Source: Prochlorococcus sp. AG-347-I19 (GTDB lineage Bacteria > Cyanobacteriota > Cyanobacteriia > PCC-6307 > Cyanobiaceae). From it: a stretch of DNA of 64,000 bases. A program made the position numbers and the translations under genes. Shown here piece by piece: positions 37,486-58,730 of this stretch. The stretch lies in contig QCBO01000001.1 in the NCBI GenBank assembly GCA_003279105.1, forward strand, positions 310,001-374,000, read 5' to 3'. How positions within the stretch are numbered: the stretch's first letter is position 1; each line of letters begins with the position of its first letter. Below the pieces are notes generated by a model. The model ran no database searches and had not been told where the DNA came from. It was given only the letters and a program-made list of their open reading frames with translations.

Positions 37486-37571
37486 TGGGAGTGGGGGGAC
37501 TTGAACCCCCACGAGCTAAATCGCTCGACGGATTTTAAGTCCGGCGCGTCTACCAATTCCGCCACACTCCC
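37486..37571 (-). tRNA. tRNA-Leu (UAA)
   Basis: An 86-nt type II tRNA. The 7-bp acceptor GGGAGTG/CACTCCC closes perfectly with discriminator A. It has a D-arm with G-G-T-A-G-A, an anticodon loop CTTAAAA with anticodon TAA (37535-37537), a long variable arm CGAGC-ATTTA-type GCTCG stem, and a GGGGG/CCCCC T-stem around TTCAAGT. The CCA end is not encoded. The anticodon loop is uninterrupted, so the group I intron found in this tRNA in many cyanobacteria and plastids is absent. Confidence 0.97.
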
Positions 37572-55130: not shown

Positions 55131-56546
55131 TTAACCCTGAACATCAAGCTTGTCGACAGTGTCAAACTCGAACTTAATTTCCTTCCAAGTTTCTAGAGCA
55201 ATAGCTAATTCAGGACTATGCTTAGCAGCTTCCATAAGAATGTCTCTACTCTCTTTTTCGATTTCGCGACCAGCATTACGAGCTTTTACACAAGCTTCTA
55301 AAGCAACTCTGTTAGCTGCAGCTCCAGCAGCTGAACCCCATGGATGACCATGTGTTCCTCCACCGAACTGAAGGCAGGAATCATCCCCAAAGATCGCTAG
55401 AAGTGCAGGCATATGCCAAACATGGATACCACCTGATGCGACTGCAAATACTCCAGGCATTGAACCCCAATCTTGATCAAAGAAGTTACCTCTTGATCTA
55501 TCTTCAGGAACAAATGACTCTCTTAAGTTGTCAATATAACCAAGAGTTGTTTGACGATCACCTTCTAGTTTTCCAACCACGGTTCCAGTATGTAATTGGT
55601 CTCCTCCAGATAGTCTCAAACATTTTGCAAGAACTCTGAAGTGAATTCCATGCTTTGGATGTCTATCAATAACAGCATGCATAGCTCTGTGAATATGCAG
55701 AAGCATGCCATTTTTACGACACCAATTAGCTAATCCAGTATTTGCAGTAAAACCACCAGTTATATAATCATGCATGATGATTGGCATATCTAGCTCTTTT
55801 GCAAATTCAGCTCTTTCATAGAGTTCTTCAGGAGTGTTAGCAGTACAATTTAGATAGTGACCTTTAACTTCTCCAGTTTCTCGCTGAGCAAGCTTAACTG
55901 CTTCTGCAACAAACTCAAATCTTTCTCTCCAACGTTGGAATGGTTGAGAATTAATATTCTCATCATCCTTCGTTAAATCAAGACCGCCTCTAAGACATTC
56001 ATATACAACTCGACCATAGTTTTTACCAGATAATCCTAATTTAGGTTTAATGGTACAACCAAGTAGAGGTCTTCCGTATTTGTTAAGTCGATCTCTTTCA
56101 ACTACGATTCCATTTGGTGGACCACCGCAAGTTTTAATGAAAGCAATTGGGAATCTAATATCTTCTAGACGTAAATGTCTTAGAGCTTTAAATCCAAAAA
56201 CGTTTCCTACAAGAGATGTTAATACGTTTGTAATTGACCCTTCTTCAAAAAGATCTAAAGGATATGCAATAAAAGCATAGAAAGCTTCAGGATCTCCAGG
56301 AACGTCTTCTATTCGATAACAACGTCCTTTATAAAATTCTAAGTCTGTAAGTAACTCGGACCAAACTGTTGACCAAGTACCTGTTGAAGATTCAGCGGCA
56401 ACAGCTGCTGCAACTTCTTCTCTTGGAACACCTTCTTGACCTGTACATTTGAAACAGGCTAGTAAATCGGTGTCTAGGGGTACATATTCTGGAGTCCAGT
56501 AGGTATCTCTGTACTCCTTTACCCCTGCGTCATACTTCTTACTCAT
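55131..56546 (-). CDS. cbbL: RuBisCO large subunit (form IA)
   Basis: Carboxylates ribulose-1,5-bisphosphate. The 471-residue protein has the catalytic lysine box [10 protein letters not shown] (about residues 167-176). The carbamylated lysine lies in [15 protein letters not shown], the loop-6 lysine in V-V-G-K-L-E-G-D-R, and a phosphate-binding [10 protein letters not shown]. It is followed by cbbS and scaffold genes, so it is packed into alpha-carboxysomes. No activase gene is in the locus as seen here. csoS1 is 69 bp upstream. Confidence 0.98.
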
Positions 56547-56615: not shown

Positions 56616-56927
56616 TTAGTCCTTTTGACCAAGAAATTCACCGTTACCTAGAGCGGGCTCAACTTCTCTATGAGGACGAGCAATAATGTGAGCTGCAACT
56701 AAACCGTCACCAACTCTTTCACAAGCATCAGCACCAGCTCTTACAGCTGCGTTAACTGCGCCTGTTTCGCCTCTAACTAATACTGTGACATAACCGCCAC
56801 CAACGAATTCACGACCAATTAGGCGAACTTCTGCTGCCTTTGTCATTGCGTCTGCTGCTTCGATTGCAGGTACAAGTCCGCGTGTCTCGATCATGCCGAG
56901 AGCGATACCCATTGTTTCTGTAGCCAT
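56616..56927 (-). CDS. csoS1: Carboxysome shell hexamer CsoS1
   Basis: A 103-residue BMC-domain protein forming the hexameric facets of the shell. It shows G-I-A-L-G-M-I-E-T-R-G-L-V-P-A-I-E-A-A-D-A and the G-G-G-Y-V-T-V-L-V-R-G-E-T-G-A-V pore-side segment. It is first in the leftward operon. Only one such hexamer gene is present beside the operon, plus csoS1D. A candidate -10 lies about 56 bases upstream. Confidence 0.97.
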   Translation of the reverse strand: MATETMGIALGMIETRGLVPAIEAADAMTKAAEVRLIGREFVGGGYVTVLVRGETGAVNAAVRAGADACERVGDGLVAAHIIARPHREVEPALGNGEFLGQKD

Positions 56928-56945
56928 TGTCTACTAAATACTAAA

Positions 56946-56959
56946 TGTGGAATGTTCAA
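56946..56959. repeat. 14-bp repeat TGTGGAATGTTCAA, copy 1
   Basis: Exact match to 57177-57190, same orientation, 231 bp apart. Copy 1 lies 19-32 bases upstream of the csoS1 ATG, within its probable mRNA leader, where it is transcribed as the complement TTGAACATTCCACA. Confidence 0.75.
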
Positions 56960-56982
56960 TTCGAAGAATGCTTCATTAAGTA

Positions 56983-56988
56983 CTTATA
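56983..56988 (-). promoter_or_regulatory. Candidate csoS1 -10 element
   Basis: TATAAG on the minus strand, inside the palindrome ACTTATAAGT. A start about 7 bases later would give a leader of about 49 nt carrying the 14-bp motif. No good -35 is visible. Because the box is within a palindrome, it reads TATAAG on both strands. Confidence 0.35.
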
Positions 56989-57034
56989 AGTCAAGCGTTT
57001 TCGACAAAATCTCCATTAATGTTTTTTCTATCAT

Positions 57035-57053
57035 TGATAAGTTAAACTTATCA
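57035..57053. promoter_or_regulatory. 19-nt palindrome upstream of csoS1, candidate operator
   Basis: TGATAAGTTAAACTTATCA: perfect 9-bp arms around one central A, about 110-125 bases upstream of the csoS1 start. The half-site GATAAGT/ACTTATC recurs as ACTTAT at 56982 and 57079 and as ATAAGT at 56986. A dimeric regulator site, perhaps LysR-type, is a reasonable reading; which protein binds is unknown. Confidence 0.5.
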
Positions 57054-57153
57054 CCCTTGGTACTATTGATATGTCAATACTTATGCAAATTAGTTAGTGC
57101 ATCAAAACATACTGTTGTGTTAAGAAAAAATTTACATTATGTTATTTTCGTAC

Positions 57154-57203
57154 GAGACAGGCCCTGTCTACACAGGTGTGGAATGTTCAACCTTTCCTGT
57201 CTC
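57154..57203. ncRNA. Candidate structured RNA element with 14-nt exposed motif
   Basis: The outer stem GAGACAGG (57154-57161) / CCTGTCTC (57196-57203) is perfect over 8 bp. Inside is a hairpin CCTGT (57163-57167) / ACAGG (57172-57176) with loop CTAC, then an unpaired stretch 57177-57195 that contains the second copy of TGTGGAATGTTCAA. On the plus strand a weak -10 (CATTAT, 57135-57140) would start RNA near 57148. On the minus strand TATTAT (57225-57230) could make the block part of a long csoS1 leader. Direction is unresolved, and no factor-independent terminator follows. Confidence 0.45.
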
Positions 57204-57223
57204 TGTATCAAGCTTTGAAGTAA

Positions 57224-57229
57224 GATAAT
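57224..57229 (+). promoter_or_regulatory. Candidate rdgB -10 element
   Basis: GATAAT, five of six matches to TATAAT, 26 bases before the rdgB TTG start. Overlaps on the other strand with TATTAT, a possible leftward -10. Confidence 0.4.
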
Positions 57230-57255
57230 ATTCACAATAAATTTTTAACTTTATT

Positions 57256-57840
57256 TTGAACCTTCCAGTTCTAACCATTGCGAGTGGCAATCAAAGAAAA
57301 GTATCTGAAATTTCAGAGATGCTGGATGTTTTGTCCTTAAAGGTTGAGAAGCAACCAGAATATTTAAATGTCGAAGAAACTGGGAAAACATATTTTGAGA
57401 ATGCACTACTTAAAGCCAAGGCAGCTTCTCTAGAGACAAAAACTTGGGCATTAGCTGATGACTCGGGTCTTGAAGTAGATGTTTTAGATGGTCGACCAGG
57501 AATTTATTCTGCTCGATATGCCAAAAATAATGATGAGAAAATTAAAAAATTAATTAATGAACTTTCTGATAGTCCTTATAGGAGTGCAAGATTTATAAGT
57601 TGTATGGTTTTGTGCGATCCCTCAGGAAACTTAGTTAAAGATACAACAGGAATATGCTGGGGAGAAATTCTCAAGAACCCCAAGTATCCTAATGGGGAAT
57701 TCGAATCTATTTTTTGGGTTAAGGAAGCTAATTGTGTTTACGGTGAGCTCTCACAATCACAACTAAATAAATTAGGTAGTAGAGGTAAAGCTGCAAAAAT
57801 TATGTCACCTTTTTTAAAAAAAGAGATAGGTTTAAATTAA
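57256..57840 (+). CDS. rdgB: RdgB/HAM1 inosine/xanthosine triphosphatase
   Basis: Removes deaminated purine nucleotides (ITP, XTP) from the pool. The 194-residue protein has the family opening I-A-S-G-N-Q-R-K (about residues 8-15) and the acidic site L-A-D-D-S-G-L-E-V-D (about 72-81). A D-G-R-P-G-I-Y-S-A-R-Y box and a late S-R-G-K-A-A-K-I box are also present. The start is TTG; the first strand begins right after it. It is inserted rightward between csoS1 and csoS1D, and its stop is 22 bp from the csoS1D stop. Confidence 0.93.
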   Translation: MNLPVLTIASGNQRKVSEISEMLDVLSLKVEKQPEYLNVEETGKTYFENALLKAKAASLETKTWALADDSGLEVDVLDGRPGIYSARYAKNNDEKIKKLINELSDSPYRSARFISCMVLCDPSGNLVKDTTGICWGEILKNPKYPNGEFESIFWVKEANCVYGELSQSQLNKLGSRGKAAKIMSPFLKKEIGLN

Positions 57841-57862: not shown

Positions 57863-58633
57863 TCAATAATTTGAAATTTCATCAATTGCTCTTATAGCGG
57901 CAGCTGCTGCTTCTTCTACATCTCCTTCTTTTCCTGCGAGAGTTAATCTACCAAAAGCACCAACTGCTTTTACATCAACAACAGTTATATTTGATGCTTT
58001 TTCTGCTTCATTTGCTGCTTTTAAAACATAACCAGCCGGTTCAGTTTCTAATATAAACATACTCATTCCAGATTGAATCATTGATCCACTTCTGTTTTGT
58101 CTATTTATTAAAACAGCATGATCTGGAGTAATAGCTCGAATAACTTCTGTCCAACTTGTTGAAGGTTTAGTTCTTTTTCTAACTTCGCTCCCAATAGCAT
58201 CTAGAACAACATCTCCAGAATGTAAAACCGTGCTTTGATCTTTATGGTAAAGGGCAAGAGATCCAAATGCTCTTTCAACAATCATCTGACCAAGTCTTAC
58301 ATTACTTGCTTTTAGTGCAATATCAGTGACTCTATGAACAGCCATCCCGGGTGAAACTTCCATCCAAAGACATGAATCACCAGGAATAGGTAAAAAACCT
58401 CTACTAACAGTTCCCATATATGCGGCTAATTGAGGCTGCAGAGAATCTAAAAAAACATATGTTCTTAACTCAATTTGCTCAACTTGACTTGCTTGTCTAG
58501 ATACCAGAGACTTTTCTGAATCAGTAGTAATAAAACAGCTAGCACCACTGGCCTGAGATTGCACCTCAGATCCAGTGACTAGAGAACTCCCTTTTTTTCG
58601 TTCCCCTCTGTTTAAGCTAGAAGTTGGTTCCAT
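57863..58633 (-). CDS. csoS1D: Tandem-BMC shell protein CsoS1D
   Basis: A 256-residue pseudohexameric shell protein with two BMC domains (about residues 50-150 and 155-256), which stacks into a double layer with a gated pore for larger metabolites. The second domain ends in [18 protein letters not shown]. About 45 N-terminal residues are flexible. I start at ATG 58633 (M-E-P-T-S-S); the longer in-frame extension to 58726 adds unrelated residues and removes the promoter space. It is separated from the main operon by the rightward rdgB. Confidence 0.93.
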
Positions 58634-58730
58634 TGAGGCGACTATAACGGATAACGGTTCATTTTTTCTATTAAATTTACTTGCATGCTTACCACAAAAC
58701 GATAACTTCAAGTAAAAGATATGCATTTTT

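Follow-up and report, generated by a model that had tools for sequence, protein, structure and literature searches.

Prochlorococcus and marine Synechococcus have few regulatory proteins, and how they control the amounts of carboxysome shell and RuBisCO is little known. Does the gap between the shell gene csoS1 and the divergent gene rdgB encode an RNA that acts on the carboxysome operon? We addressed this question in a stretch of 64,000 nucleotides from Prochlorococcus sp. AG-347-I19 (contig QCBO01000001.1, positions 310,001 to 374,000), hereafter called the window, in which the gap contains a structured element as well as the csoS1 leader (Table 1). The computation supports a conserved structure, a strand preference, and a conserved complementarity between the element and the leader. 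We consider it likely that a small RNA from the plus strand pairs with the 5′ end of the csoS1 mRNA, a reading in which transcription, both start sites, and pairing in the cell are inferred.

Table 1. Features of the csoS1-rdgB region, in window coordinates
Feature	Position	Strand	Remarks
csoS1	56616-56927	-	BMC domain; proposed target gene; precedes rbcL
rbcL	55131-56546 (frame)		Listed open reading frame
rdgB/HAM1	57256-57840	+	Ham1 family; divergent from csoS1; downstream neighbor of the element
Structured RNA element (span of the R1 match)	57150-57207	+	R1 score of 63.9 bits
Outer stem, 5′ arm	57154-57161	+	Pairs with 57196-57203; two-sided changes in 8 of 8 helix pairs
Outer stem, 3′ arm	57196-57203	+	Same covariation evidence as the 5′ arm
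Inner hairpin CCTGT-CTAC-ACAGG	57163-57176	+	Fold of the window; two-sided changes in 5 of 6 pairs of the model's inner hairpin
Core GGAATGTTC	57180-57188	+	Unpaired or weakly paired; complementary to the leader of csoS1; unchanged in 42 of the 47 thinned loci
Candidate -35 of the element, TTGTGT	57115-57120	+	By eye; 17 nt ahead of the candidate -10; missed by the consensus scan
Candidate -10 of the element, TATGTT	57138-57143	+	By eye; many lineages have TANNNT ahead of the stem
Target GAACATTCC in the csoS1 leader	56949-56957	-	Complementary at positions 0 to 8; leader core exact in 44 of 47 loci
Candidate -10 of csoS1, CATTCT	56965-56970	-	CATNNT pattern conserved (by eye)
Candidate -35 of csoS1, TTGACT	56989-56994	-	TTGAC conserved (by eye)

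A repeated motif and a folded element

The 14-mer TGTGGAATGTTCAA is present at 56946-56959 and again at 57177-57190, in the same orientation, and the 1.46-Mb genome holds only three exact copies, these two in the csoS1-rdgB gap and one upstream of rpoD. The second copy overlaps the exposed stretch of the element, GGAAUGUUC, whose core is left unpaired by the centroid fold of the window sequence. The 5′ end of the element is predicted to lie at about 57150-57154. The single-sequence fold is modest, with z scores of -1.7 on the plus strand and -2.9 on the minus strand, and one sequence alone would therefore not settle the structure. A consensus scan of 56900-57300 found neither a promoter nor a terminator; by eye, TTGNNN recurs about 17 nt above TANNNT ahead of the stem in many lineages. 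On the far side of rdgB, the minus-strand frame at 57863-58726 is one that we take to resemble the shell protein CsoS1D.

Conservation, covariation, and strand

A 171-nt piece of the gap is present in 201 of the 266 genomes of the genus. The covariance model R1, built from 31 sequences and used with a cutoff of E ≤ 0.001, matches 290 of 399 genomes in the order and 33 of 44 genera, almost always once per genome (the match list shows two matches in 3 of the 290). Within a sample of the phylum, five of 146 genomes carry a match, all five in the window's family; G269, another listed genome of this family in the sample, has none. Loci L119 to L228 were selected by their R1 match, while L039 to L118 are the 80 named loci nearest by CsoS1, mostly from Prochlorococcus and chosen by CsoS1 alone; some genomes belong to both sets. 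Among the 80 CsoS1-chosen loci, both 14-mers are found with at most two mismatches in 52, and the nine-base core GAACATTCC occurs at both places, with at most one mismatch, in 77. The block was recovered in 187 of 191 loci, being truncated in L078 and L099, degenerate in L098, and missing in L117. Greedy thinning of the 187 left 47 loci, in a few of which the automatic choice of the stem was shifted or doubtful.

The stems covary. In a MAFFT alignment, two-sided changes affect 10 of the 14 pairs; shuffling gave 3.3 such pairs, and no slid control exceeded 7. When the 47 thinned loci were aligned to the model, the figure rose to 13 of 14 pairs, with 96 two-sided cells, whereas shuffles gave 26.5 and slid controls no more than 24; this alignment had been fitted to the structure beforehand. 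RNAalifold, rerun on the 47-locus alignment, recovered the outer stem and some of the inner hairpin, along with a small hairpin inside the core. Pairing of the outer stem is held across many different sequences, such as GAGACAGG/CCTGTCTC, GCAGCGGT/ACCGCTGC, and GGAACCGG/CCGGTTCC, and the fold of the marine-type Synechococcus record L108 comprises a closing stem and two hairpins, including GUGG-AAUGUUCAAC-CCAU. That a conserved structured RNA is encoded at 57150-57207 is, in our view, very likely, in the absence of any expression evidence.

The mismatches in the outer stem carry information on the strand. Read on the plus strand, its 376 cells in the 47 loci comprise 16 G.U, 4 A.C, and 17 other mismatches. 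Since a minus-strand RNA would exchange G.U for A.C, the 16:4 ratio (binomial p = 0.006, kinship ignored) favors transcription from the plus strand, divergent from csoS1.

Complementarity to the csoS1 leader

The csoS1 leader shows TTGAC, CATNNT, and then GAACATTCC about 30 nt ahead of the ATG. Because transcription is expected to start 7 to 8 nt past the -10, the mRNA is inferred to begin at or next to the G of GAACATTCC (56957). The palindrome GATAAGTTAAACTTATC lies at 57036-57052, about 80 bp upstream of this predicted start; it takes the form GATAAG-spacer-CTTATC in many relatives, and we take it to resemble a LysR-type (RbcR/CbbR-like) operator.

The original prediction had placed a 14-base motif twice upstream of csoS1, two stems at 57154-57161/57196-57203 and 57163-57167/57172-57176, and a pairing between element and leader over 17 positions. 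The motif and its coordinates were confirmed, the stems are present, and 57174-57190 does pair with 56943-56959 through 15 Watson-Crick and 2 G-U pairs. However, the complementarity shared by the family begins at the G of GAACATTCC and runs from 56957 downward, not from 56959; positions 56958-56959 match in some lineages only. Indeed, each of the leader positions 0 to 8 is complementary in 45 to 47 of the 47 loci, and the position one base upstream (-1) is A.C in 40 of them and complementary in 7.

Differences between the two copies at positions 0 to 15 are G.U compatible in 35 cases and A.C in 15, to which base composition may contribute. Loops paired with their own leaders reach -26.6 kcal/mol, compared with -24.5 kcal/mol when partners are swapped (0 of 5000 permutations, kinship ignored). 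Both partners carry an identical change in L100, L218, L225, and L226, which may represent one event. Of the marks of a trans-encoded base-pairing small RNA, the element shows complementarity that is conserved toward a target lying at another site; a discrete transcript and an effect of pairing on target expression are inferred. It lacks the mark of a cis-encoded antisense RNA, overlap with the target gene, the predicted starts being divergent and about 195 bp apart.

The window's csoS1 leader alone is unfolded. By eye, the leader CTCCTCCAGGAG ahead of the start codon in L230, L216, and similar loci may fold back onto its own Shine-Dalgarno-like AGGAG.

Neighboring genes and the separation of element and target

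At 33 of the 191 loci, csoS1 was not recognized in the stretch; all 33 have rdgB, with sbtA on the other side of the element (Pfam Sbt_1 was confirmed for the one sbtA checked). In the 32 genomes compared, csoS1 lies on the same contig, 1531 to 1880 bp from the element; in G444, it is on a different contig. Leaders could be read in 30 of these 33 sbtA-adjacent genomes, and GAACATTCC is exact in all 30. Since the separated leaders keep it, the target stays with csoS1, while the element stays with rdgB.

Between the element and the csoS1 cluster, the 33 loci (e.g., L160, L196, and L245) carry sbtA and a following sbtB-like frame; the genera in which sbtA adjoins the element are ones that we take, as a guess, to be freshwater. 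We rejected sbtA as a target: in 33 of 33 loci, the element itself is the only place within 420 nt upstream of sbtA that resembles GAACATTCC with no more than one mismatch.

These loci bear on the opposite direction of transcription, in which both copies would sit in one long csoS1 leader and form a tandem-motif switch. In its favor, the fold of the window's minus strand has a somewhat better z score than that of its plus strand (-2.9 against -1.7). Against it, the G.U and A.C counts favor the plus strand, sbtA occupies that side instead in all 33 loci without csoS1 in the stretch, and the 30 separated csoS1 leaders retain a promoter-like pattern of their own. We therefore regard a leftward leader as very unlikely.

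A second alternative is that the structure belongs to the rdgB mRNA as its 5′ leader, acting in cis, or is such a leader that also acts on csoS1. Indeed, in all 187 loci with the block, rdgB follows it in the same direction, 38 to 682 nt away (median, 67 nt), and the scan found no terminator. However, a CANAAT/GACAAT box precedes rdgB in 36 of the 47 thinned loci (counted by hand) and in 10 of 10 loci lacking the element, and the exposed core matches the csoS1 leader, with the match ending at the predicted csoS1 start. Because this box resembles a -10 of rdgB itself, which we take it to be, a separate gene is favored and an rdgB leader appears unlikely, albeit read-through or a double role remains possible.

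Of the two orientations offered by the original prediction, a rightward RNA pairing with the csoS1 leader is thus favored by the covariation, the plus-strand G.U pairs, the promoter pattern seen by eye, and the target kept despite sbtA, with transcription itself inferred; the leftward tandem leader is disfavored. The prediction would have fallen had relatives shown no conserved stem or motif, or had the rdgB promoter alone explained the conservation. Neither holds.

Exceptions and natural deletions

Some loci depart from the pattern. The core reads GGACTGTTC in L182, L208, L211, and L212, and also in L377; leaders were read for three of the first four genomes, and none of the three is changed. 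Other loop changes without a matching leader change occur in L075, L107, L201, and L224, and in L152, the leader is altered and the loop is not.

No R1 match at E ≤ 0.001 was obtained in 109 of the 399 genomes of the order, some of which are incomplete. Thirty R1-less genomes, all at least 90% complete, gave a best E value of 0.038 under relaxed limits. Among the csoS1 loci of these 30, L356, L376, and L377 have a copy of the core 261 to 325 nt upstream (with one change in L377), and ten rdgB-adjacent loci (L348 to L355, L357, and L358) have lost the element or hold a degenerate remnant, while keeping rdgB and the CANAAT box. The other 17 show no core within 1500 nt, the element being perhaps beyond sbtA or absent. 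The ten element-less loci amount to natural deletions and offer a useful comparison: the leader core is exact in 44 of the 47 thinned loci with the element versus 6 of the 10 without it (Fisher p = 0.014, kinship ignored). That six of ten still keep it suggests that the leader sequence has a use of its own or that the losses are recent.

Persistence of the leader core in these six loci, together with the repetition of an identical sequence in the same orientation, would also suit an operator pair, in which both copies are sites for a DNA-binding regulator. Such a pair leaves the covarying stems and the G.U/A.C asymmetry unexplained, and the spacing of the copies is not fixed, since a gap of 1.5 to 1.9 kb separates them in the 32 genomes compared. 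We find this explanation very unlikely.

Proposed mechanism

In the small-RNA reading, the block would be a gene with its own promoter, lying between csoS1 and rdgB and transcribed rightward into an RNA at least about 60 nt long. This RNA would fold into a closing stem enclosing the inner hairpin and the exposed GGAAUGUUC. This stretch, often extended at its 5′ side by GGGU or similar, would pair with the first 9 to 16 nt of the csoS1 mRNA, the start codon lying about 30 nt beyond the paired 5′ end. Covering the mRNA 5′ end may hinder the loading of ribosomes or alter 5′-end-dependent decay, and the outcome would be to set the output of shell protein and RuBisCO. The sign of this regulation is inferred, and our preference is a matter of judgment: a brake on the csoS1 mRNA is as easy to believe as to doubt, and we lean slightly against the possibility that the RNA protects it.

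We speculate further, with a confidence only modestly on the favorable side, that one small RNA controls the operon for shell and RuBisCO through the first nucleotides of its mRNA, expression and regulation being inferred. The same bolder reading would make the RNA a dedicated post-transcriptional regulator tied to cyanobacteria with alpha-carboxysomes and retained by even the most reduced Prochlorococcus genomes. If true, a large share of oceanic carbon fixation would have its own post-transcriptional regulator, and carbon fixation in very abundant phototrophs would gain a level of control at which RNA acts; this would be relevant to the transfer of cso operons into other hosts without the neighboring RNA. 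The candidate is precise: its pairing site and its target site are both specified, and some natural genomes carry the element while others lack it. This makes the question directly testable.

Relation to known RNAs

At gathering scores, Rfam 15 finds only a tRNA (37486-37571) in the whole window. A search of 56850-57300 at E values of up to 5 returned only RAGATH-11 (E = 4.7; 14.3 bits versus a gathering score of 79.4). The closest earlier listing is cluster 87 of Axmann et al. 2005 (PMC1242208), a structured region upstream of rbcLS in MIT9313 and WH8102 (Z = -4.24 and -3.64; 336 columns), untested and unnamed, with the comment that it contains a conserved promoter, citing Vogel 2003. It is very likely that this cluster includes the present element, but the table proposes neither a target nor a strand for it.

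In Table 1 of Steglich et al. 2008 (PMC2518516), which lists Yfr8 to Yfr21 of MED4, neither csoS1 nor HAM1 is among the neighbors, judging by names and PMM numbers; for this check, we took PMM0548/PMM0549 to be the MED4 numbers of the csoS1-HAM1 locus. The main text of that paper contains no occurrence of csoS1, rbcL, or ham1. Yfr1, Yfr2, and Yfr10 are likewise conserved base-pairing small RNAs of cyanobacteria, and csoS1 and csoS2 are named as Yfr10 targets (Lambrecht et al. 2019, PMC6778093). However, they lie at another locus and appear to use another pairing motif, and the element has no Rfam match. The conserved Yfr1/Yfr10 motif contains UCCU and is placed in an unpaired stretch; in the element, UCCU occurs at 57195-57198, largely within the paired 3′ arm, and the exposed core is GGAAUGUUC.

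Control of RuBisCO genes by RNA is also reminiscent of RblR of Synechocystis (PMC5306279), but RblR is antisense to its own target gene, while the element and its target do not overlap on the DNA. FasX, a small RNA of an unrelated bacterium and with an unrelated sequence, likewise acts at the 5′ end of the mRNA with which it pairs. The terms "sRNA" and "small RNA" are absent from a 2026 review of CO2-concentrating mechanisms (PMC13249358). Within the literature searched, the element is likely to be an undescribed regulator of carbon fixation; its expression is inferred, and an earlier listing is not excluded.

Other occurrences of the motif

A phage collection gave no match. A degenerate 19-mer of the core was found on four viral contigs, in whose available DNA tblastn detected neither rdgB nor csoS1 and R1 had no match (best, 13.3 bits, E = 0.28). 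By our own estimate, a few such viral 19-mer matches would be expected by chance.

The third exact 14-mer copy lies in a 171-nt noncoding piece upstream of rpoD (L003:1470-1640), found in 50 of 61 genomes of the genus at 91 to 100% identity. Among 38 rpoD-upstream loci read, 34 carry GAACATTCCA and 4 carry GAACATTACA. In other genera, the motif (at most one mismatch) is absent from up to 600 nt before the rpoD frame in 18 of 18 genomes, and rpoD was therefore rejected as a second conserved target. Something other than the motif may be conserved in the 171-nt piece. A further copy of the 14-mer, with one mismatch, is found in L004 at the end of an ABC-transporter-like frame.
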